Of a stretch of 31,912 bases of DNA, positions 12,043 through 23,443 are shown in pieces. The notes beneath the pieces are model-generated. The model made no database searches. It was not told the DNA's origin and was given only the letters and a program-made list of their open reading frames with translations. The stretch's first letter is position 1. Each line of letters starts with the position of its first letter. Source of the stretch: a virus. A program made the translations under genes and the position numbers. The stretch is from the IMG/VR virus record IMGVR_UViG_3300025138_000193, positions 1 to 31,912 of that record; one strand, written 5' to 3'.

Positions 12043-12933
12043 TTATATTAATTCTAAGTTAACGTCAATTTCGGAGTAATCAACTAAATCATATCCATCT
12101 TCTGTTTTCCATATAGAAGTTTTAGGAAGCATAGGGTCAAAAGACATAACACCTTTAAACTTGCCTGATCCATGCTTGAACTTATCTATATATTCAAAAG
12201 TATATATATTTAAACCACTTTCAGCTTGTCCAACTAATTCTATATTTTGTTTTAATCTAATATCACTACCAGCTAGAGCCATACCTACGTTCGTTACACC
12301 ACCTACTAAAGCCTCAGTAGCAGCATCACCATAAGCAACCTCTTGTTGTTTGTAAAAATCTTCTTTTTCTTCAACCCTAGCCAAATCAGCTGATTGTCTA
12401 GCTTCTAAAGTATTGAAAGCTTTTCTATCTTCGGCAAACGCAGACTGTTGAATAGCTACTTTTTGTGCGGTTGCAGCAGCTTCGCCTTGAGCTCTTTGTT
12501 TTGCATTTGCAGTTTCTTGTTGTTCTATACTAGCTGAAATACCTTTTTTACTTTGCAATGCTGCTCTAGCTAAAGCAGTGGCTCCTCCAGCAGATGCTCC
12601 TGAGGAAACCATAGCATCTAAAGTGTTAGCTAATGCCATATCGGTTTGTTCTGCTTGAAATTCAGCAGCTTGAGTAGCCACACCTAGATTTGCATATGGA
12701 TTATTCACTTGATTAGCAAGCGCTCTAATTCCGTCAGCATTATTTAACACGGGCTGTCTATTAGCTCTTAGTCGAGCAGCTTCAGCTTCTCTTTTAGCAG
12801 CTTCGGCTGCGGCTGCTCTTTGTTTCTTTTTGTTAGATCCAAAAGACAAAGCTCCACCAATTAAAGCTGTACTTCCTGCTACTATAGCTGCAACACCTAC
12901 TGTAGCTTGCATATAAACTATTTCTAATATCAT
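12043..12933 (-). CDS. Ala-rich internal virion-type protein ending in an S74-like SDxRLK domain (296 aa)
   Basis: The N-terminus carries a hydrophobic Gly/Ala segment (about residues 9-31), then a long Ala/Gln/Glu-rich helical stretch (about 35-205) typical of internal or ejection proteins. The last 75 residues change character: SDIRLK at 223-228, then GLNIYTFEY, GKFKGVM and DGYDLVDYSEID. This is the pattern of the peptidase S74 / intramolecular chaperone domain, which keeps a Ser and a Lys five residues apart (S223, K228). The usual long C-terminal coiled coil is missing. The ATG at 12933 overlaps the cupin stop (ATGA); an internal Met at residue 8 (MQATVGV) is an alternative start. Chaperone or self-cleavage is inferred, not shown. 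Confidence 0.7.
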   Translation of the reverse strand: MILEIVYMQATVGVAAIVAGSTALIGGALSFGSNKKKQRAAAAEAAKREAEAARLRANRQPVLNNADGIRALANQVNNPYANLGVATQAAEFQAEQTDMALANTLDAMVSSGASAGGATALARAALQSKKGISASIEQQETANAKQRAQGEAAATAQKVAIQQSAFAEDRKAFNTLEARQSADLARVEEKEDFYKQQEVAYGDAATEALVGGVTNVGMALAGSDIRLKQNIELVGQAESGLNIYTFEYIDKFKHGSGKFKGVMSFDPMLPKTSIWKTEDGYDLVDYSEIDVNLELI

Positions 12934-13427
12934 ATTTTTAATTTTGGATGATTATAATTTTCACTAGTAACGTCTTTAATAACATCTTCAACATTTGTTT
13001 TGTCAGTTGGATGTACTGTTACCCATACACATTCTTCATCAATGTATAAAATTCTTTGTGTTCCTGGTTCTGTCATACCGTGGTGTGGAGCTTTCATTTT
13101 AGTAAGACCTTTGTCAGATATGACAGTGCACTCTCCAGACATTACGAAGTAAGGATGCTTAACTAAATGTATAGCACTTAAATATATCATACCTTTTGGC
13201 ATAGTTATTTTCCTAATATAAGTACCTTCTCCAAACTCATGTTCTAGCTTACCACCATTAAAAGTGTCTAAAACATCGTTTTCTTTATAAGACTCTCTAA
13301 CTACAGAATCTTCAAAATCTCTTATGTTATTTTGAAACTCAGTTATTTTTTCTCTAAAACCAATTTTATCAATATTACCGGCTAGTGAAATAATCTCATT
13401 AATATTATCACTTGTTTTTTTGTTCAT
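12930..13427 (-). CDS. Cupin-fold protein of the tail region (165 aa)
   Basis: A helical N-terminal part (about 1-55) is followed by a single cupin-like beta barrel at about 60-140. Cupin motif 1 is approximated by G79...H87-x3-H91...E99...G107 (IHLVKHPYFVMSGECTVISD), and motif 2 by P121-G122...H139 (RILYIDEECVWVTVHPTDKTN). The histidines could bind a metal, but spacing differs from the classic HxH, so an enzyme is not certain. Similar cupin-like proteins recur among structural genes of marine phages, as far as I recall. Its stop overlaps the next gene's start by four bases, so the two products are probably made together. The exact role (structural or small-ligand binding) is unknown. Confidence 0.75.
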   Translation of the reverse strand: MNKKTSDNINEIISLAGNIDKIGFREKITEFQNNIRDFEDSVVRESYKENDVLDTFNGGKLEHEFGEGTYIRKITMPKGMIYLSAIHLVKHPYFVMSGECTVISDKGLTKMKAPHHGMTEPGTQRILYIDEECVWVTVHPTDKTNVEDVIKDVTSENYNHPKLKI

Positions 13428-13446
13428 TTAATTTAATTTAATTTAA
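13427..13446. repeat. Four tandem TTTAA units at a gene junction
   Basis: TTTAA is repeated four times without change. The array touches the cupin start codon (13425-13427) and includes the stop codon of the 690-residue tail gene (13443-13445), so it is the whole leader of the cupin gene. Confidence 0.85.
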
Positions 13447-15515
13447 TAACCTGTAGACTGTATAAATTCTGTTGCTACAGACCATAGCTCTTTAGTGCCT
13501 CCTACTTCAGTTGAGTTATCTGTTTTTACTTTTACTGTAGCAAAATATCCTTTTATACCTGTAATATCAGGCCCAAATCTAATTTCACCAGGAGCGGCTA
13601 CAGAGTTAGAAACTAAATTAGCAACATATTTATTTTCTTTTCTATTAAAACCAGCTCTTTGAGGCTGCCCTGTTGTAGCGTCATTATATAGCCCTTCGTC
13701 ATAACTATACACAGAGTTAGTTTTATCTTGTGTGTTTACAAAAGCGCCGCCTGGAGATAAATTTGGCTCTGTAAAACCAGATTTAAAAGAATCTACTTCC
13801 CAACCATTACTACCTTCATATTCAATTGTTTTAAAAACTTTAACATTAGATGGATTAGGATTTAAAACAAAAGTAACAGTTGATGGGTTATAAGTTCCAT
13901 AATAAAAACCTCTAGAATCTACAGTTGTTTCATTATAATGCTCGTATAAGCTAGCCTCTGTAAAAGTGTAAAAATTGTTTTTTAAACTACCCATCATCTC
14001 AGGCTTGTAAGTAGCAAAGCTTACCCAACCGTTTATTGATTCATCAAAAGTTAAAGTTTTATAACTAGAGCTTTTGAAATTATCTACTTGTGTAGGTGTT
14101 TTTTGTAAAGAAACAACATAATTTTTGTTGTGAATATCCCAACCGCCTATAATTCTAGTTTTTATAGGGCTAGTAAATCTAAATATTGTAGCATAAGTAG
14201 TAGAGCCAATTGTTGTAGAGGTAGGTATTACTACATTGATATTTCTGGATAAATAAACTTTAGTTGTAGTCCCACCAGTAGGTACTAAAACTTGAGTTAT
14301 ATATCCATCTAAGTTATTATATTTAGATCCACCATCTAAGCTATAAGAACATACCATGCCTGGGCTTATGTTTGTTAATTCATAACCATCGGCTAATATA
14401 GTAGAAGTTGTTAAGCTTATTAATGTATTATCTACACTTGTTGCTACACTATTGTTTGAGTTTATAACATAACTAAGGACGCCACTGGTTATCAAAGTTA
14501 ATTCATCTCTAAAATAATCTGTCATACCATAAGCGCTTATTTCTGTTAATCCGTCTCCAGATAACCTCATAATAGCACTTCTATCTTTATCTGCAAAATA
14601 TTTTCTATAACCATAAACAGCAAAGCTTTCAGGATTATTGCTAATACCGTATTCACCTTTATAAGGCACTATTTGACCTAATACTTTTGCACCTGCTTGT
14701 GTTTGTGTACCACCTTCAGTTGTATATATAGTGTCTTTATCAATCAAAGCCCTACTTATTTTATCTTCTTGAAAAACAATTAAGTTAGTGTCTTCAGCAT
14801 ATGTTTTTTGTATAGAGCCATTTTGAGGGTCTGCTGATCTAGTTAAATCATCTGCAACAGAAAAAACATTAGTATTATTAATACCTGTTCTAGAGTTATA
14901 AACACCAGAATATATTAAAGTATTAAACCTATGTTGTTGTTGCGGCTCAGGTTCATTTACATATGCTTTAACTCCTTTGTCAGTAGATATGCTGTTAAAA
15001 CCGCCATTAATTCTAGACTCTTCAACATACCAAGTATTGTTTACAAAGTCAACGTTGTAACCGCCTTTCAGTGTTATTACTATATTTGTAGTCGCTCCTG
15101 TAACACCAGCAATTGTTAGTGTGTCACCTATTTCATATCCTTTACCTGGTTGTAAAACAGTTATATTACTAATTAAACCGCTTTGGACAGTACCTACAGT
15201 AATCTGTAATTTAGCACCTAACCCGTTGCCACTAGTTGTTAAAACAATATTTCCCTCGTCACCAGGATCGTTAGTAACATAAACACCATTAGTGTAACTT
15301 CCAGATGCAGTAACAGAGTTTGTTAAACCACCATCTTGTTTTGTTAGCGTAGGCCCATTTATAAGACCTGGATATGCTACTCCAGGCGATATAGGAAACC
15401 CATCTTTTGGCGTTGTATAAATACTATCTACATCAAGACTTTCAGCAGTATTTACATCTGTAACTTTTTTTAACAAGTACGTATTAAACCAATCAACTTC
15501 TATAACTGTTCCCAT
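13443..15515 (-). CDS. Tail / muzzle-type structural protein (690 aa)
   Basis: A beta-rich virion protein, probably in the tail complex. Residues about 85-150 contain a GxGY module (GLGAKLQITV ... GKGYEIGDTLTIAG, with GKGY at 124-127). The middle, from about 185, carries a conserved region with YSGVYNSRTGINNTNVFS, then GEYGISNNPESFAVYGYRKY, and RLSGDGLTEISAYGMTDYF at about 290-345. I know this pattern from structural proteins of marine and crAss-like phages. A second small module with PGMVCSYSLDGG lies near residue 383. The C-terminal half is Tyr/Thr/Asn-rich beta structure. It follows the 1774-residue tail gene by 29 bases. In some relatives the equivalent regions may sit in one chain; here they are two genes. 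Exact position in the tail is inferred. Confidence 0.7.
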   Translation of the reverse strand: MGTVIEVDWFNTYLLKKVTDVNTAESLDVDSIYTTPKDGFPISPGVAYPGLINGPTLTKQDGGLTNSVTASGSYTNGVYVTNDPGDEGNIVLTTSGNGLGAKLQITVGTVQSGLISNITVLQPGKGYEIGDTLTIAGVTGATTNIVITLKGGYNVDFVNNTWYVEESRINGGFNSISTDKGVKAYVNEPEPQQQHRFNTLIYSGVYNSRTGINNTNVFSVADDLTRSADPQNGSIQKTYAEDTNLIVFQEDKISRALIDKDTIYTTEGGTQTQAGAKVLGQIVPYKGEYGISNNPESFAVYGYRKYFADKDRSAIMRLSGDGLTEISAYGMTDYFRDELTLITSGVLSYVINSNNSVATSVDNTLISLTTSTILADGYELTNISPGMVCSYSLDGGSKYNNLDGYITQVLVPTGGTTTKVYLSRNINVVIPTSTTIGSTTYATIFRFTSPIKTRIIGGWDIHNKNYVVSLQKTPTQVDNFKSSSYKTLTFDESINGWVSFATYKPEMMGSLKNNFYTFTEASLYEHYNETTVDSRGFYYGTYNPSTVTFVLNPNPSNVKVFKTIEYEGSNGWEVDSFKSGFTEPNLSPGGAFVNTQDKTNSVYSYDEGLYNDATTGQPQRAGFNRKENKYVANLVSNSVAAPGEIRFGPDITGIKGYFATVKVKTDNSTEVGGTKELWSVATEFIQSTGY

Positions 15516-15544
15516 ATATATATTATCACTTATTTTTTAATTTT

Positions 15545-18500
15545 TTAACTAGTAGGTGGAGGACCTTCTGGTCTACTAACAACTACTTCAATATACAACG
15601 TTTGAGAAGCTAGCCCTGTTCCACCAGCATCTTCTACTTTTAAAGTGTTAGTATATGTTCCAGATGGTAAATTACCTGGTGTAAATCTTACAAGCTGTCT
15701 ACTAGCTTGCTTTACAAAACTTGTAGATCCGTCAGGCACAAACACATAATTTCCAACTGCTCCAGCGACTCCATCTACAAATGACCAGTAAGATAGGTTT
15801 AGGCCAAACTCCCACCTAATTTGTTGGCCTGAAACTGGGTGTGCAGCTCCGTTGAAAGCATAAGGAACTTGACTACCTGATGTTTGAGCTGCTCCACCGT
15901 TTGAAGTTAAAGAGATATTAACTGATTCACTAGTTCCACCTCCTGGATATTTACTTCCTTTATTATCAACTATTGAAGGAGCATTATTACCTACAGACCC
16001 ATTCCAAGTAAAAGTATTTGTGTAAGCTATACCACTAACAATATTTCTAGCTTCTACACTTAAAGATAAACCATTTGTGAGTTGATTGGAGTTAAAATAC
16101 CTTGGAGCTGTTATATCCACTTTACCGTTATTAACGTTACTCACTGTACTATTACTCAAAGCAAATCCAGATTGGGGGTTATTTGAACCGTCAGTTACTT
16201 GTAAATTTTGAAATTGACAATTACTAAGGACAGTGCCATCTTGTGCTTTTGCTGTAAATTGAGACACAAGAGAGCCAATTTCTCCTGCTAGTGGACTTGA
16301 AGCGTTTGTTCTGTTTTCTGGAAAATCTAAATCAGATGCCCGATCTTCTCCCGGAATTCCAAAAGTTAAAACAGAAGGTCTAGCCGAACTATCAGCGTTG
16401 TTTATTTTAGAGTTTAATTCAGATACTAATCCACTTGTAGAAGTTTCCCAGTATATATCTAAATTAGATATTTTAGGCTCTATTTCTAAAACGCCTATTG
16501 GATCAGGGTTGTCTTGGTTTACTTGTTTTAAATGCTCTGGCAGTAATGTAAACCTAATAGGACCAGTCCATGTTAACCCGTATGTAGGTGAGTTAAGACC
16601 TCCGGGCCACGGTGGCACTTCAATTACATTACCAGCTCTATAGCCGCTACCAACGTTAATAACTTGCCAAGTTATGTCTTCTAAAGAGCCAGTGCCAGGA
16701 AACCCATCTTTTGGTGGATGTAAAACAAATTTACCAGATTTTTTCCATGGGCCAGAACACATAGCTCTAAGCGTTAAACCAGATCCACCACCACCAGATA
16801 TTAATTTTGTTTCTATAGATCCTCCTGCTTGCAAGTTAAAATCTCGTAATTTAATAAGGATATTATCTGAGCCAATGACGGGAGTTGAACCCGTGAGTAT
16901 TGTTACAAAAGTAGGATCAATAGTAATAATATCGTCAACTGCATAACCAGTACCTTCGTTTATTACTGATATTTCAAAATTAGCAGGTATAGTTCGATTT
17001 ATAAGTATACCCTGGGGGTTGAAGAAAAAATCTCTAATAGGAGGATTTACAACTTTAACGGTAGTGCTTGCTGTAACGTTTTGTGGAACGTTAATAGTTA
17101 TTTTTATAGTTAAACCGAATCCACTTCCAGTGCATGAAAACGTATTTGCAGCTGGCTCAGTTGCATTATCTTGAGTTAAAGTTACTTCAGTAAGAGAAGA
17201 TGTAATCGTAGCAGTTATTAATGAAACAGTTCCAACCAACGGGTCTCTGAACCTTGGCGTAAAATAATTAAAAGTTGATCCATTTGGAAAGTTTATTAAT
17301 CCAGTAGACACACCTCTATTAGGAACAGTAAACACTTGACCAGTTCCTAGCGAGGTGGTATTAGCACTATTACCTCCATAGTGGCTCCAAACTCCCCACT
17401 GATGTGTACCATTATTATTTGGCTTTAAACTTCTTGTTCCATTTTCCTTTCCCGCCCATTCTGAATCAGGTATTGGAAACAAACTTCCATCAGCCGCATT
17501 ACCTTCAAACCTAGTTGGTTCACCGTCTACAATACTAGGCATTCTAATAGCTGTATTAAAATTTAAACAACCTTGGAGCTCATTTAAGTCTCCATTTTCA
17601 TTTTCTAAATAATAATGTGTTCCAGAAAAAATATAATTATTATACCAAGCTCCAAATTTATTACCGTAAGTACTTACCTTAGCTACACTAGGGTTACTAG
17701 CAGCATCATATATGCCAGGTGCATGAATATCACGCATATCACCTTCAAACCTAGTATTAAGACCCATGTCGCTAGTTTTTCCTATAGCATCTACTGTGAA
17801 AAATAATGAGTTTGAACCGGTTGTTCTATTTTTTCGTGAAAATTGCTCACTCTGTATATTAAAGCCAGTAGCCGCAACTCTAGGATATAAAACAACATCA
17901 CTAGTTCTAAATTGAGTTTGCTCAGGAGCTGGATCTATAGTGTCTGCAGGTATTTTATCTATATTATCTCCAGTCAGTGTTAAATAACTTTGTCTAGTTC
18001 CTAGTAATCTACTATATTGAGTAGTTCCAGAAAGTGGATTAGGAACGTAAGCATTGTAATAATCTTCAGCTTCTTGTTTTACAACAACTTTATAACTATA
18101 CCAACCTAATGGATTACCATTGCCAATTATAGTTATAGCTGTATTAGCACTAATTGTAACATTGTTACTTAATGTTATTTTTTTAGTACTAGCATCTATA
18201 GCTGTAATTGATTCAGAAAAAGAAACTGCACTGCTGTTAGTGCCTTGAACTATACTACCAACTATTATATCATCATTCCACTCTGTTAGAATAAATATGT
18301 TATTAGTAGTATCATTACTCGCTTTAGCGTTTATAAAACCGCTTCTGTATATACCAGGATATCCATCTGCATATGAAACTGTTTCAGGAATAGAATTATT
18401 AAAAAGTATTTTAATACTATCACCAAACCAATTATATATGTTTGAATTTTCTACTCTGTAATCGTGAAAAACTGTAGATCCTGAAAATATATTTTCTTGA

Positions 18501-20869
18501 GGAATATCTTCTATTGGAGTTCCTGAAGCAACAGCCGGAAATATTTGAGTTGAATCACCAAGTGAGGATAACACAACATCTGAAGATCTTCCGTATTTAT
18601 CCTGTAAAACTATACCTACTTGATAATTTCTATTTTGCTTAACACTGTGCGTTGGGTATGCTACTGAAGATTTATTTGAATATTGATTATATAATCCAAA
18701 TTTTGAATTAACTCCAACTGAGTAGTCTAATGTTAATGGTGGAGTTGGTTTATCAAAAAAGTTTCCAAATACAACTCTATTTCCAGTAACTGATTGAGTT
18801 TTAGCTCTTACAGGTATTTTATCGTATACTCTAACTGTTTGAGCTTCTGTTAGGTTTCTAAAAGGTTTTCTAGACTGATAGTTGTAAGTTAATTTTTTAC
18901 TACTGTTATTAACTATTTCTGAATCTGTAGAACTGAAAGTGTCTAAAACTTTAACCACAAGTCCATCAGACTCTTTGTATAGTAAGTCAATTTCTACTAC
19001 TTTTAATTCATTATAAAGATCGTTAACAGGGTATTCAAAAGGAACAACTATATCGACTTCTTCTATTCTATTTTCAAAAAAGTTTAACACAGTAGAAGTA
19101 CCAATATCACTTTCTTGAGAATTTAATTTACCAAAATCGTAACGTATTTCTTGTTTTCTACGCCAAGTTTCATAGTATGGATCTTCTGCATCAACGCCTA
19201 TAAATACGTTATTTACTTTATCTGATAAAGTTGTTAAATACCCATCTTGATTAGGTATAAATGCAGGTTGTGTAAACGGTGAAATAACGGAATATTCACC
19301 ATCTTCAAATTTAAGTCTATAAGCAAATCTTACAAATTTTTTAGATAAAAAGTCACTATCGCCAGGCCACTGAGGTAAATAATAAGGATTTGGAGGTGAT
19401 AAAACTATTTGAGTTGATTTTATAAATGTTGAAGAATTAAATGGAGGAGTTACAGTAACGCTATGTACTGTGGTAGCGGGTGTTGAACCAGTTGTAGTAA
19501 CGTTAGTTATATAAGTATTAGGTAACAAAGGACCTCTATTTACTCCAGTACTATTTCCGCCACCTACGGCAGAACTAACTAACATACCTTGAAAAGGAGT
19601 TCCATTACATTTCATTATAAAAGTAGTCCTGCTAGATTGTCCACCTTTAGGACTGTCATCTACTTGAAAACCATTTCCAGACGTAACAACACCTAGCATT
19701 GTAGGACTTAAGTGCCTTTCAGTTCTAGTGTATGAGTTTTGGTAATATACCGTTATTGGTTGAGAACCCCAAGATTTGTCATCAGGCACAGTGGTATCTA
19801 CAACAAAAGTACTTGTATCAAGAGAAGCTGCCCCACCAGTGGTAAGAGTACTTAAAACTCTCATATTTTGGCTTTGAGCACCTCCTTGGCTATTATTACC
19901 GCTTAGAACTATATACATTCCTTGCATTAGTAAATTCTGAAATGCACCACTAGTACTAGTAGCGCCTCTCCAAAACCACCACTTAGTAGTTACGGAAGTT
20001 CCAGTAGTAACAACACCAAGAGATGGTTTATCTACAGTTACTGTGTATATACCTGTTTCAGGGTTTATATCAACAGAAACAATAGAACTCAAGTTATCAC
20101 CATTAGCAAAAACTATATACATACCAGGGTATATATTTTGTTCAGTTATAGCTGTTAAACTAGTAGCAGAACCACTTAAGGTATATACAGTGCTGCCGAC
20201 AGGATAATCAGTTGTTCCATATATGAAAGAACTTCCAGGAGGTATTGTAGCTGTTCCATTAGAAGCTGATACTCCGTATAGAACATAATTGCTAGATAAT
20301 TCAGGCGCTTTAAAAGGGGAGTATTTAGCTAAAGAAATTTGATCCTCACTAGTGTAATGGTAGTTTGTAGAGCTCGTAGTAACAGAGTTAATAGCTAAGT
20401 TTACATTTATTTTTCTAGGTTGATTTCTATTATCAGTAAAAAATAATAAATCTTCTACTATATTAACTCCATTAATAACATGTGTAGTAGAAAAATTTAA
20501 AAAAGATCCTACAACTAGATTAAGACTTTGGCTTGTATTTAAATCATAAACTGATATACTACAATAGGCACCAGCTCCAGCAGGGTTACTAAGTGAGTTA
20601 GAAGATGAATCTGTATAGTTAGTAATAAAAACATATATCCTGTCATTAGTATAATCCATTAAATTACCTATAATAACGGCTCCATCTACTGTAGTAAATT
20701 TATTTAATTCTAAATTTCCTAAAACATTTTCTAGCGCGCCAACATCAGATCCTTCAGACTTGCTTACGTTTATATTTTGAGCATCTCTATATTCGCCTTT
20801 AGATAATATTCTATCATCTAAGTCTTTATTCATTTTAGACTTGATAAAAGTATTTTGTGCTTTAGCCAT
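15545..20869 (-). CDS. Large tail / stabilisation (muzzle-type) protein (1774 aa)
   Basis: The N-terminus has SKMNKDLDDR, GEYRDAQNINVSKSEGSD and ALENVLGN (residues about 10-52), a signature of large stabilisation or muzzle proteins in marine short-tailed and crAss-like phages. A beta-propeller-like start (DGAVIIGNLMDYTNDRIYVF) follows. Repeated small beta modules with GMYIV or GM (about residues 247, 314, 425) interrupt the first part. The core (about 480-1200) carries the conserved FRFAYRLKFEDGEYSVISPFTQPAF-like strand region at about 510-540, split here only for description. Two GxGY modules lie at GTGY (about 1306) and GSGY (about 1406). The end (about 1560-1770) looks like Ig/cadherin-like repeats, closing with RPEGPPPTS. 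It lies 6 bases after the second neck protein. A tRNA T-arm-like sequence is embedded at 16868-16895. Tail location is well supported; host-binding by the C-terminus is inference. Confidence 0.75.
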   Translation of the reverse strand: MAKAQNTFIKSKMNKDLDDRILSKGEYRDAQNINVSKSEGSDVGALENVLGNLELNKFTTVDGAVIIGNLMDYTNDRIYVFITNYTDSSSNSLSNPAGAGAYCSISVYDLNTSQSLNLVVGSFLNFSTTHVINGVNIVEDLLFFTDNRNQPRKINVNLAINSVTTSSTNYHYTSEDQISLAKYSPFKAPELSSNYVLYGVSASNGTATIPPGSSFIYGTTDYPVGSTVYTLSGSATSLTAITEQNIYPGMYIVFANGDNLSSIVSVDINPETGIYTVTVDKPSLGVVTTGTSVTTKWWFWRGATSTSGAFQNLLMQGMYIVLSGNNSQGGAQSQNMRVLSTLTTGGAASLDTSTFVVDTTVPDDKSWGSQPITVYYQNSYTRTERHLSPTMLGVVTSGNGFQVDDSPKGGQSSRTTFIMKCNGTPFQGMLVSSAVGGGNSTGVNRGPLLPNTYITNVTTTGSTPATTVHSVTVTPPFNSSTFIKSTQIVLSPPNPYYLPQWPGDSDFLSKKFVRFAYRLKFEDGEYSVISPFTQPAFIPNQDGYLTTLSDKVNNVFIGVDAEDPYYETWRRKQEIRYDFGKLNSQESDIGTSTVLNFFENRIEEVDIVVPFEYPVNDLYNELKVVEIDLLYKESDGLVVKVLDTFSSTDSEIVNNSSKKLTYNYQSRKPFRNLTEAQTVRVYDKIPVRAKTQSVTGNRVVFGNFFDKPTPPLTLDYSVGVNSKFGLYNQYSNKSSVAYPTHSVKQNRNYQVGIVLQDKYGRSSDVVLSSLGDSTQIFPAVASGTPIEDIPQENIFSGSTVFHDYRVENSNIYNWFGDSIKILFNNSIPETVSYADGYPGIYRSGFINAKASNDTTNNIFILTEWNDDIIVGSIVQGTNSSAVSFSESITAIDASTKKITLSNNVTISANTAITIIGNGNPLGWYSYKVVVKQEAEDYYNAYVPNPLSGTTQYSRLLGTRQSYLTLTGDNIDKIPADTIDPAPEQTQFRTSDVVLYPRVAATGFNIQSEQFSRKNRTTGSNSLFFTVDAIGKTSDMGLNTRFEGDMRDIHAPGIYDAASNPSVAKVSTYGNKFGAWYNNYIFSGTHYYLENENGDLNELQGCLNFNTAIRMPSIVDGEPTRFEGNAADGSLFPIPDSEWAGKENGTRSLKPNNNGTHQWGVWSHYGGNSANTTSLGTGQVFTVPNRGVSTGLINFPNGSTFNYFTPRFRDPLVGTVSLITATITSSLTEVTLTQDNATEPAANTFSCTGSGFGLTIKITINVPQNVTASTTVKVVNPPIRDFFFNPQGILINRTIPANFEISVINEGTGYAVDDIITIDPTFVTILTGSTPVIGSDNILIKLRDFNLQAGGSIETKLISGGGGSGLTLRAMCSGPWKKSGKFVLHPPKDGFPGTGSLEDITWQVINVGSGYRAGNVIEVPPWPGGLNSPTYGLTWTGPIRFTLLPEHLKQVNQDNPDPIGVLEIEPKISNLDIYWETSTSGLVSELNSKINNADSSARPSVLTFGIPGEDRASDLDFPENRTNASSPLAGEIGSLVSQFTAKAQDGTVLSNCQFQNLQVTDGSNNPQSGFALSNSTVSNVNNGKVDITAPRYFNSNQLTNGLSLSVEARNIVSGIAYTNTFTWNGSVGNNAPSIVDNKGSKYPGGGTSESVNISLTSNGGAAQTSGSQVPYAFNGAAHPVSGQQIRWEFGLNLSYWSFVDGVAGAVGNYVFVPDGSTSFVKQASRQLVRFTPGNLPSGTYTNTLKVEDAGGTGLASQTLYIEVVVSRPEGPPPTS
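16868..16895 (-). other. tRNA 3'-end-like sequence inside the tail gene
   Basis: Read on the - strand the sequence contains ACGGG-TTCAACT-CCCGT, a perfect 5-bp stem with a seven-base loop of T-arm type, followed by CATTGGC, T and CA as in an acceptor end. No matching 5' acceptor strand (GCCAATG on the - strand) lies about 60 bases upstream, so it is not a whole tRNA. It is read through in frame as LTGSTPVIGS using G/C-rich codons unlike the neighbours. Confidence 0.4.
19944..19963. repeat. 20-base exact repeat, copy in the 1774-residue tail gene
   Basis: GCACCACTAGTACTAGTAGC occurs here and at 21906-21925 in the preceding neck gene, in the same reading frame, encoding ATSTSGA in both. Both copies are in beta-rich module sequence, so local recombination or module copying is a plausible cause. 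Confidence 0.8.
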
Positions 20870-20875
20870 TTAATT

Positions 20876-22318
20876 TTAATGTTTAATCCACTTAGATTTG
20901 CCTCTCATTACTTGAGTAAACTCACCTAGCTTTATATTACTTAATCTTATTTTAGCATTTCTTAACTTTGCTGACTTTTCTTTTTTAAATCTTTGAACTA
21001 TGTATTCTGGCGTCTTTGGCCTATAAGCTATTATATTATACGTCATGTAAGCATATAGTGCATCCTCGGCCATCTTAGGCACCTTAGTGTCCTCGTCATA
21101 AGCTAACCCGTCTGATATGTATTCTAGAGTTATTAATCTATTAGCAAGATCACTACTAAAAGCAAATACACCACGTCTTTCATCTACAGTAAACCATCCA
21201 TTTTTTTGTGAAATCTCTGGGTCTAAACCATATCTTTGACCATAAGCCATTTTCCACCAAGACCAATCAAACACATTAGCATTACTATTTACCTCTGCTA
21301 AAGTTGAATTTCCACTTGTGTTATTAGTGTTAGCAGATTTCCACCTTCCATTAACTAAAGATTGTGTAGCTTGTAATGAATTACCATAAAAATCCTGTGT
21401 AGGTATACCACTAGCATCTTGTAGTGGTAGATTTGTAGGATTAGAAGTTAACGTTGTAGGATATATTATATGTTTAACACCACCACCATCTACCCAAGAT
21501 AATTGTACATAGTTAACATAGTCTTGTGGTAATACTAAAGAAAGACTAGGTGGTATAGTTAATTCTTGTGATTTAATACTCTTTAGAGTATCGTAACTAA
21601 ATTCTTGTAAACCTCTTTTAGCATGGAATATAACGTCAGATCTTTTTACTCTAGGTATAAGTTTGTCTGTACCTACATAAGCAACCATGAAATTATTTAC
21701 AATATCTTTTAAATTTATGTATTGATAACTTTTATAATTATCCCAAAGTGAAGAGTTTATTAATCTAACTGTTATTATAGACTGTGCAGGTATATTTGTT
21801 GTGGTTGTACCCACTGTGTATGTTGCAGTTCCTGTAACACCTTGTCCAGTTACTTGTACAGTATCACTATTGACATAGCCACTGCCATCACTAAATATTG
21901 ACATAGCACCACTAGTACTAGTAGCTTGAAGAATTAAATCTTTTCCTACACCAACTTGTCCTCCACCGTTAACAACTGTATAGTTTTGACCTACTACAAA
22001 GTTTGAAGCCCCTCCAGAAGGAGCACTTACACTAGTTACATCTTGTTGTGAGGTTAAAGTTAAAGTTTGAGTTCTTATGCCGCTAACTATAGAAGTTGAT
22101 AGTGATTGACTTAAGTTGTAAGGATCTAATGTAGGGTATTGTTCTATACCATCAACAAATACTTTAAAGTTATTAACAGATGTAGGCGTAGCGCTAGCGT
22201 CCCATATTAAAGGTGTTAAATTGCTTGGCCAAACAACAGCATTAGTTGCAGTTCCCGTAGGATTATATACTGCTTCTCCTTCGTAATATTCAGAGCTAGT
22301 TTGTTTTATTAAACCCAT
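20876..22318 (-). CDS. Neck / head-tail connector protein, second of two (480 aa)
   Basis: A conserved neck or tail-adaptor protein by position and pattern. The conserved core is the C-terminal part, from about residue 190: INLKDIVNNFMVAYVG, HAKRGLQEFSYDTLKSIKSQ, LPQDYVNYVQLSWVDGGG, YGLDPEISQKNGWFTVDERR, LEYISDGLAYDEDTKVPKMA, and a basic end (KLRNAKIRLSNIKL, MRGKSKWIKH). I associate this region with a connector/ring protein common in marine phages. Residues about 105-165 form a GxGY module (GSGY at 145-148) that seems inserted before the core. The ATSTSGA repeat is at 132-138. It lies 3 bases after the first neck gene's stop and 6 bases before the large tail gene. Assignment to a specific ring is not possible from sequence alone. 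Confidence 0.7.
   Translation of the reverse strand: MGLIKQTSSEYYEGEAVYNPTGTATNAVVWPSNLTPLIWDASATPTSVNNFKVFVDGIEQYPTLDPYNLSQSLSTSIVSGIRTQTLTLTSQQDVTSVSAPSGGASNFVVGQNYTVVNGGGQVGVGKDLILQATSTSGAMSIFSDGSGYVNSDTVQVTGQGVTGTATYTVGTTTTNIPAQSIITVRLINSSLWDNYKSYQYINLKDIVNNFMVAYVGTDKLIPRVKRSDVIFHAKRGLQEFSYDTLKSIKSQELTIPPSLSLVLPQDYVNYVQLSWVDGGGVKHIIYPTTLTSNPTNLPLQDASGIPTQDFYGNSLQATQSLVNGRWKSANTNNTSGNSTLAEVNSNANVFDWSWWKMAYGQRYGLDPEISQKNGWFTVDERRGVFAFSSDLANRLITLEYISDGLAYDEDTKVPKMAEDALYAYMTYNIIAYRPKTPEYIVQRFKKEKSAKLRNAKIRLSNIKLGEFTQVMRGKSKWIKH
21906..21925. repeat. 20-base exact repeat, copy in the 480-residue neck gene
   Basis: Partner of the copy at 19944-19963; identical over 20 bases and in the same frame (ATSTSGA). 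It adjoins the GxGY module of this gene. Confidence 0.8.
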
Positions 22319-22321
22319 ATT

Positions 22322-23443
22322 TTATTTTTTTGAATTTTGTTCATCAAGTTGCTGTAATCCACTAGCGGCTTGAATAACTTGAGTATCTTTTACTATTACT
22401 CCAGCATACTTTAAAATACCTAATGTAAGGTTTGTTTGTAAACTATCACTAATTTCAAACTGTTTTGAACCTTGACCAGTACCACCTATTAAGTTGTTAC
22501 TAGCTATATTTATAATAATAGACGCTGAAGGGCTTCCTGTAATAAATGAATTAATTGGAATTTGTATAATTGCACCAGCTACATAGCCTGAACCAGAGTC
22601 AGTAACTACTATGCTAGTATTTGCATTAGATATAGTTACTACTTGTTGGGTACCATCACTAGTAGCGCCTGTAACTGTCATTGTTATTTTTGCGCCAGTG
22701 CCACCACCAGGAGAAAGAAAACAAAAACACCCTGTAGAGCCACTATTGCTTTGAGTTAAAGTGTAAGCTACGGAACTTTCACCACTTGGCGGGGTTTGTG
22801 TTATTGTTATACCAGCACCATTGTTTGTAAAATTAGTTGAAGTGTTTAAACTAGCTAAAGCCATACCTGTAGGCACGTAAGCTCTATTGTCATATATATA
22901 TTGGCCTAAAGAGCCTATTGTATAACCCCATCTAACATCTTCAGGTTTTCTAATATAATTAAAACTAACGTCAGAACTTGAGAAAGACGTTAAAGGTGGA
23001 AATACTGTTAATTTATTTTCTTGATATTTTGCTATAGGAAAATTCATGCTAGGTTGTAGCAATGGGGATAATACTTGTTCTCTATATTCTCTAGAACTTA
23101 CTATTTCAATAGAAGGCTGTCCGTTTGCTTTTGTGTATGTTGCGGATCCAAATCTATGTAATGTTGTTGGTTGAGTATACACGTTACCAGCGTGAGCAGA
23201 AGCATTTTCTGTTTTCTCAAACACTTGAAACTCTTCTCTAATATGATCAACTCTTGAGGCAAACTCTTCATCTGTTTTTGGCATACGTAAATACTGGTTA
23301 TAGTCTTCAAAAAACTTTTCAAACTCTTCTAACTGAACTTGAGTAGCTATTTTATTAAACTCATCTGGAGTTAAATAACCACGCTGTTCTTTGTTCAATA
23401 TGCTTAATACTGTTGTATATACCGTGTTTACGTTCATTGCCAT
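22322..23443 (-). CDS. Neck / head-tail connector protein, first of two (373 aa)
   Basis: The N-terminal part is helical with VNTVYTTVLSILNKEQRGYL, TPDEFNKIATQVQLEEFEKF and FEDYNQYLRMPKTDEEFASR (about 5-64), a pattern I know from neck-type proteins of marine phages. It continues to RKPEDVRWGYTIGSLGQYIYD (about 165-185, split at YTIG for description). A beta-rich stretch at about 195-320 contains a GxGY module (GTGAKITMTV at 248-257; GSGY at 284-287). After it the helical core resumes: KQFEISDSLQTNLTLGILKY and AGVIVKDTQVIQAASG. The module therefore looks inserted into a shorter ancestral protein of roughly 250 residues. The gene follows a terminator and is 3 bases from the second neck gene. 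Role is inferred from gene order. Confidence 0.7.
   Translation of the reverse strand: MAMNVNTVYTTVLSILNKEQRGYLTPDEFNKIATQVQLEEFEKFFEDYNQYLRMPKTDEEFASRVDHIREEFQVFEKTENASAHAGNVYTQPTTLHRFGSATYTKANGQPSIEIVSSREYREQVLSPLLQPSMNFPIAKYQENKLTVFPPLTSFSSSDVSFNYIRKPEDVRWGYTIGSLGQYIYDNRAYVPTGMALASLNTSTNFTNNGAGITITQTPPSGESSVAYTLTQSNSGSTGCFCFLSPGGGTGAKITMTVTGATSDGTQQVVTISNANTSIVVTDSGSGYVAGAIIQIPINSFITGSPSASIIINIASNNLIGGTGQGSKQFEISDSLQTNLTLGILKYAGVIVKDTQVIQAASGLQQLDEQNSKK

Follow-up and report, generated by a model that had tools for sequence, protein, structure and literature searches.

Why does the same glycine-rich beta pattern recur in consecutive tail genes of a single virus? The DNA analysed here, a 31.9-kb stretch from a virus record that we refer to as the window, has a podoviral gene order on the minus strand: terminase, portal, major capsid and small proteins, and then structural proteins of 373, 480, 1774 and 690 residues. 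These were compared with relatives on contigs labelled L001 onward. The four structural genes are:

22322..23443, minus strand: ring/neck protein, R1-like, 373 residues, phrog_14543 (PHROG match; fold resembles the phicrAss001 ring protein 7qoj_D)
20876..22318, minus strand: second neck/ring-like protein, R2-like, 480 residues, phrog_13977 over residues 193-466
15545..20869, minus strand: muzzle-front, 1774 residues, read as the front half of a split muzzle (phrog_14478; relatives)
13443..15515, minus strand: muzzle-back, 690 residues, read as the back half of a split muzzle (crAss_MUZ_C, PF25729, residues 536-634)

Among named phages, Flavobacterium Elemovirus, Cellulophaga and Maribacter phages encode the nearest relatives of the 373- and 480-residue proteins. 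The crAss_MUZ_C domain of the 690-residue protein scores 47 bits against a Pfam cut-off of 27 (E 3.7e-12), and residues 486-578 of the same protein align with residues 1200-1288 of phicrAss001 gp44 at an hhalign probability of 93%. Because the front and rear parts of the phrog_14478 profile match one gene each (positions 3-181 the front of the 1774-residue protein, positions 918-1098 the 690-residue protein), we read these two genes as the halves of a split muzzle. The top VIA match of the 373-residue protein is 7qoj_D, with Z 9.0 and an rmsd of 4.1 over 116 aligned positions, in a model where much of the core has pLDDT below 50. When the R1 and R2 alignments were compared as profiles with gp43 and gp40 of phicrAss001, there was no match. 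Sequence searches of the PDB with the ring, R2, 1774- and 690-residue proteins or alignments found no relative, and a profile search of genome contigs with the R1 alignment found none either. We refer to the phage as a marine crAss-like podovirus.

The muzzle is a single long gene in elemoA (1470 residues), in the Manatee Spring relative (1551 residues) and in phicrAss001 (1371 residues), and two genes in the window (13443-20869), L004, L006, L007, L010 and others; the split may imply a two-chain assembly of the tail-tip protein. Elsewhere in the window, the region 12043-13427 encodes a 165-residue protein with matches (E 5e-25) to PHROGs of short tail fibres/adhesins and a 296-residue protein whose C-terminus, DIRLKQNI..., we take to resemble an intramolecular-chaperone fibre tip. 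A PAP2-family phosphatase-like gene (694-1209; E 1.8e-7, over the cut-off) adjoins a gene for a 2975-residue protein without a Pfam match.

The recurring segment is a beta-rich module of about 60-80 residues with the pattern GxG...VxxG(S/T/K)GYxxGD. An iterative profile seeded with the copy in the 690-residue protein converged at 53 domains in 47 proteins from the window and 43 related contigs. The module profile A3 matches five copies in the four consecutive window genes, with E-values from 4e-5 to 2e-16:

22490..22717, minus strand: copy 1, R1-like protein, within the insert (A3, E 9e-16)
21791..21958, minus strand: copy 2, R2-like protein, N-terminal variable region (A3, E 7e-12)
16880..17131, minus strand: copy 3, 1774-residue protein, in pieces 16880-16984 and 17042-17131 (A3, E 1e-8 and 4e-5)
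16571..16801, minus strand: copy 4, 1774-residue protein (A3, E 9e-15)
15066..15239, minus strand: copy 5, 690-residue protein, within the insert (A3, E 2e-16)

These matches bear out the five copies that the first-pass annotation had placed in the four genes; in copy 3, the motif halves are set apart by a loop of approximately 23 residues. Reversed and three locally shuffled versions of approximately 1150 ORFs returned zero module matches, which rules out chance resemblance. In a cross-family test, in which the training set of each profile left out the gene family under test and all sequences of the window, the copies were recovered at E 4.9e-4 (373-residue protein), 0.021 (480), 9e-5 and 2.2e-5 (1774) and 1.8e-11 (690), with the best non-carrier window ORF at E 31 or worse. 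The 480-residue copy and the first 1774-residue copy are the weakest; the former has orthologous copies in L001, L003 and L012, with which it is joined. The cross-family recovery and the empty controls confirm the proposal that one pattern is common to several stacked tail proteins, and on this profile evidence we conclude that the five segments share ancestry as copies of one module.

All window copies fall in segments that are missing from many relatives. For two of the carriers, the surrounding insert can be delimited:

22481..22879, minus strand: R1-like lineage-variable insert, residues ~189-321 (alignment of relatives)
15054..15356, minus strand: insert of the 690-residue protein, residues ~54-154 (absent in 16 of 16 other aligned relatives)

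The R1 insert is present in 17 relatives (L001-L017) and is reduced to a short loop between two strongly conserved blocks in 22 (L018-L037, less those that are cut off, together with L039 and L040); it interrupts the conserved core between the beta-sandwich and the C-terminal helices. The R2 copy, at residues 119-168, lies in an accessory N-terminal beta region, ahead of the conserved helical core that begins at about residue 195. The R2 proteins of L004 and L005, 71-73% identical in other respects, lack the copy at this site, and those of L013 and L037 have the module at two different N-terminal positions, for a total of three R2 sites. The clean absence of the segment in relatives thus upholds its description as an inserted decoration; that it interrupts the conserved helical cores of both neck proteins, as had also been proposed, holds for the 373-residue protein and fails for the 480-residue protein, in which the copy precedes the helical core. 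That the segment might belong to the core of every relative is ruled out by those that are insert-free.

Residues 1-190 of the R2-like protein form their own N-terminal beta region, which holds all three R2 insertion sites; the shorter R2 homologue of elemoA (286 residues) seems to be without it. Muzzle-back copies elsewhere (L010, L012, L013 and L020) are located near residues 288-349 of their own proteins. The two muzzle-front copies of the window share a segment with 11% occupancy among relatives, and the muzzle-front copies of relatives sit near residues 220-230, 741-817, 991-995 or 1042. A fifth carrier class comprises small proteins of 209-222 residues encoded upstream of R1 (L006:5936-6601, L009:6250-6882, L013:7793-8458 and L042:8411-9037), possibly free-standing decoration proteins; two of these, when searched against PHROGs, had no match. 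At L040:8677-9987, an additional R1-like gene (36% identical) and then a partial R2-like gene lie upstream of the main pair, as if the ring genes had been duplicated.

The history of the insert was followed on a carrier tree built on R1 and R2 core columns, with the inserts excluded. On this core tree, the R1 insert carriers demand at least four changes, and a single clade of carriers is rejected (p-AU 1.2e-32). The core of L014 groups with that of the insert-less L033, and L014 and L015 are 88% identical in the insert versus 77% in the core. For L014/L015, DNA identity is approximately 62% just before the insert and 74-92% inside it; for L014/L033, it is 75-89% before, and there is no insert. 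DNA identity along the gene thus switches at the insert, which shows that the ring-gene insert was exchanged by recombination in the L014/L015 pair. The L014 ring gene (L014:7875-8876) is itself a recombination mosaic, in which the beta-sandwich part and the insert differ in their closest relatives (L015, L033).

On the module tree, which is poorly resolved, copies from the same gene do not form one group (11 label changes versus a minimum of 4), and same-site, orthologous copies mostly cluster. Because same-site copies usually group, swapping between genes does not appear to be constant; capture would be occasional and followed by inheritance. The window copy in the 690-residue protein is nearest to R1 copies (45-48% identical, 48% for the L010 ring insert) and to one that the 1774-type gene of L067 carries (45%), not to the copies of its own family. 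Taken together, the trees and alignments demonstrate repeated gain and loss, or replacement, of the module. The suggestion of a mobile module is substantiated on three counts: i) the carriers are not one clade, ii) there are several insertion sites, and iii) one case of recombination was found.

Structure models were obtained for two of the five copies. In its model, the R1 insert forms a beta domain whose block pLDDT values are mostly 75-91, with one block at 69; its strands span residues 252-258, 276-282, 292-295 and 309-312, with 267-271 in an extra loop. The R1 core model is poor, with pLDDT 29-50 in much of it and below 50 over residues 99-156. The copy in the 690-residue protein is modelled with four strands at a mean pLDDT of 76. 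Strand order and motif position agree between the two models, which supports one fold for the R1 and muzzle-back copies. A Foldseek search of the insert against the PDB and viral models returned nothing usable. VIA with residues 190-322 gave weak beta-barrel rows alone (EF-Tu and aIF2-gamma domains and the SafD adhesin, Z 2.0-2.5), and a 65-residue model gave a single fold row at Z 2.1. A Pfam scan of 41 members found no family that covers the module; the best Ig-type row was Big_11 at E 0.035, and no Ig or BACON family exceeded its cut-off.

Beyond the crAss-like relatives, the module profile matches 21 times in S-SSM6b, 20 times in S-ShM2, 7 times in P-SSM2, 5 times in pelagiphage Mosig, twice in HTVC008M and once in T4; no module was found by profile search of lambda, T7, phicrAss001, elemoA, Maribacter phage Panino and the Manatee Spring relative. 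Carriers in S-ShM2 include the baseplate protein gp8, the neck protein gp14 and a 6198-residue protein located between gp6 and gp7. The gp8 and gp14 proteins of S-ShM2 have 510 and 387 residues as against 334 and 256 in T4, with the module placed in stretches that T4 lacks. Among PHROGs, weak matches extend to baseplate, head-decoration, head-closure and fibre families. The same profile therefore detects the GGSGY modules of Kyanoviridae cyanophages (S-ShM2 gp8, gp14 and SShM2_093; phrog_6005 and others), at approximately 20 per genome in neck and baseplate proteins. In Kyanoviridae these often form tandem arrays in giant proteins, whereas in the window phage the podoviral ring and muzzle proteins carry one or two inserts each. 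Judged by shared profile matches, the module is common to unrelated marine phages, crAss-like podoviruses and T4-like cyanophages among them.

The sole match in T4 falls on residues 92-119 of the sheath protein gp18, where domain I begins, and the module's top PDB match is likewise gp18 (E 0.004, with the next unrelated rows at 0.05). Domain I of gp18 (PF22639; PDB 3fo8, 3foa) resembles the module in being a loop insertion of a tail protein and in its N-terminal hairpin, GSxYxVGDxI, of which the GSxYxVGD part was recovered at an hhalign probability of 92%. The alignment, however, spans only 25 columns, and PF22639, searched on 19 records, reached at best 14.6 bits against a cut-off of 27, with no match in the window itself. 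The R1 insert model has approximately eight strands and a short helix, and gp18 domain I is a six-stranded beta-barrel with a helix. The absence of gp18 from the VIA rows for the R1 insert excludes nothing. In T4, domain I is inserted in domain II and protrudes, making no subunit contacts; it binds the baseplate and the retracted fibres, and fibre retraction is inhibited by three mutations in this domain (PMC3004832). We take the gp18 resemblance as a lead on mode of action, not as membership. A more ambitious proposal, doubtful in our estimation, is that one mobile beta module not described before, with distant homology to gp18 domain I, has been traded among unrelated marine phages (Bacteroidota crAss-like podoviruses, T4-like cyanophages and pelagiphages) and fitted in varying combinations to ring, neck, baseplate and muzzle proteins, where it would serve as a general docking surface for fibres or cells.

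Other known systems offer partial parallels. Phage Ig-like and BACON domains are likewise promiscuous beta domains of tail proteins with horizontal spread, and BACON repeats occur in crAss-like tails (PMC6949934), but their motif is different and no such profile exceeded its cut-off here. The ring proteins and muzzle gp44 of phicrAss001 (PMC10172136, 7qoj) appear to be of the same types as the carrier proteins, and insertions in crassvirus muzzles are described there; phicrAss001 differs in having no module copy and in encoding its muzzle in one gene. The R1 and R2 proteins of phicrAss001 form the fibre docking hub interface, and its rings are dodecamers (PMC10172136). In A-1(L), an insertion domain of the wedge holds the long fibre (PMC10966104).

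What might such an insert do? The reading we prefer, and consider reasonably probable, is of a mobile beta-rich domain, about 60-80 residues in its core and up to about 130 as a full insert, that is spliced into loops of ring and muzzle proteins as a solvent-exposed decoration making weak multivalent contacts; its surface exposure, copy number and binding partner are here what we infer. The scaffold would be held by four conserved strands together with the GxG and GxGY-GD turns, and the fast-changing loops would provide weak, many-fold contacts around the tail, with 12 copies in each ring should the rings be dodecamers like those of phicrAss001. The contact partners could be fibres or hub of the same phage while the virion is at rest, or polymers of the host surface, which makes fibre/hub docking and cell-surface adhesion the two leading candidate roles. 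Because R1 and R2 form the hub interface in phicrAss001, fibre docking is plausible for the R1 and R2 copies; the muzzle copies would be borne on the cell-facing tail tip.

A narrower version of the decoration reading would make the module a carbohydrate-binding domain for host capsule or exopolysaccharide, an idea to which we give some chance, well short of an even one. It would fit the position of the module on the tail and its abundance in marine phages, and Ig-like and BACON tail modules are themselves thought to bind surfaces (PMC6949934). However, no Pfam carbohydrate-binding family exceeded its cut-off, with CBM_5_12 at E 0.055 in two members only. Across families, the conserved positions comprise the GxG, the GxGY and the glycine of the GD that comes next, a set of mostly structural glycines with one Y and one D; they offer no universal ligand-like site and no aromatic platform common to all copies. 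This pattern is consistent with a scaffold that displays variable loops.

Rates of change bear on whether the insert has a selected function at all. In four R1 pairs that include the window, dN/dS is 0.42-0.74 in the insert versus 0.04-0.12 in the core; dS for the window/L001 pair is alike in insert and core (0.105 vs 0.088) and is higher in the insert for the other window pairs. The other informative R1 pairs have insert values of 0.14-0.38, mostly above the core, with the exception of L014/L015, in which the insert was exchanged, and for R2 the values are 0.36 versus approximately 0.1. By these estimates the insert changes faster than the core, usually with a several-fold higher dN/dS. A ratio raised yet below 1 may reflect relaxed constraint rather than adaptation. 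The raised dN/dS, gain and loss, and low conservation would suit a neutral filler, in which a module able to fold spreads through illegitimate recombination and persists in loops without any selected function. We consider that explanation unlikely, as dN/dS in the insert stays below 1 throughout (0.14-0.74), scaffold residues are more than 90% conserved across families, and inserts persist at one site over deep divergence (R1 cores 86% identical for window/L004 and 77% for L014/L015).

The recurrence of the module in stacked rings could also mean that copies bind one another and stiffen the tail, and in the window, L012 and L013 each of the four consecutive tail proteins does carry a copy. Most relatives, however, have the module in one or two of the four proteins, many being without it in R1 or R2, and the R1 and R2 inserts are not gained or lost together (L037 has it in R2 only, L004-L007 in R1 only). 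Since gain and loss are not coupled between rings, such glue between them is quite unlikely. Convergence of unrelated low-complexity segments is very improbable: the segments are short, rich in Gly, Ser and Thr and 20-45% identical to the 690-residue copy, but reversed and composition-preserving shuffled ORFs gave zero matches, recovery succeeded across families, and strand and motif order are alike in the two models.

We return to the decoration reading for its wider meaning. PHROGs register the module only as pieces of structural proteins, a literature search of open papers found none that names it, and we know of no named family for it. Mobile decoration domains as such are already known; this one is a real, mobile and un-named phage module, probably a decoration. 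If the reading is true, a widespread domain could be picked out when the abundant marine "virion structural proteins" are annotated, and natural pairs with and without the insert, such as L014 and L033, would be available for probing the role of tail decoration. One module would link the tail evolution of marine crAss-like podoviruses and cyanomyoviruses, and would help to explain the oversized structural proteins of marine phages.
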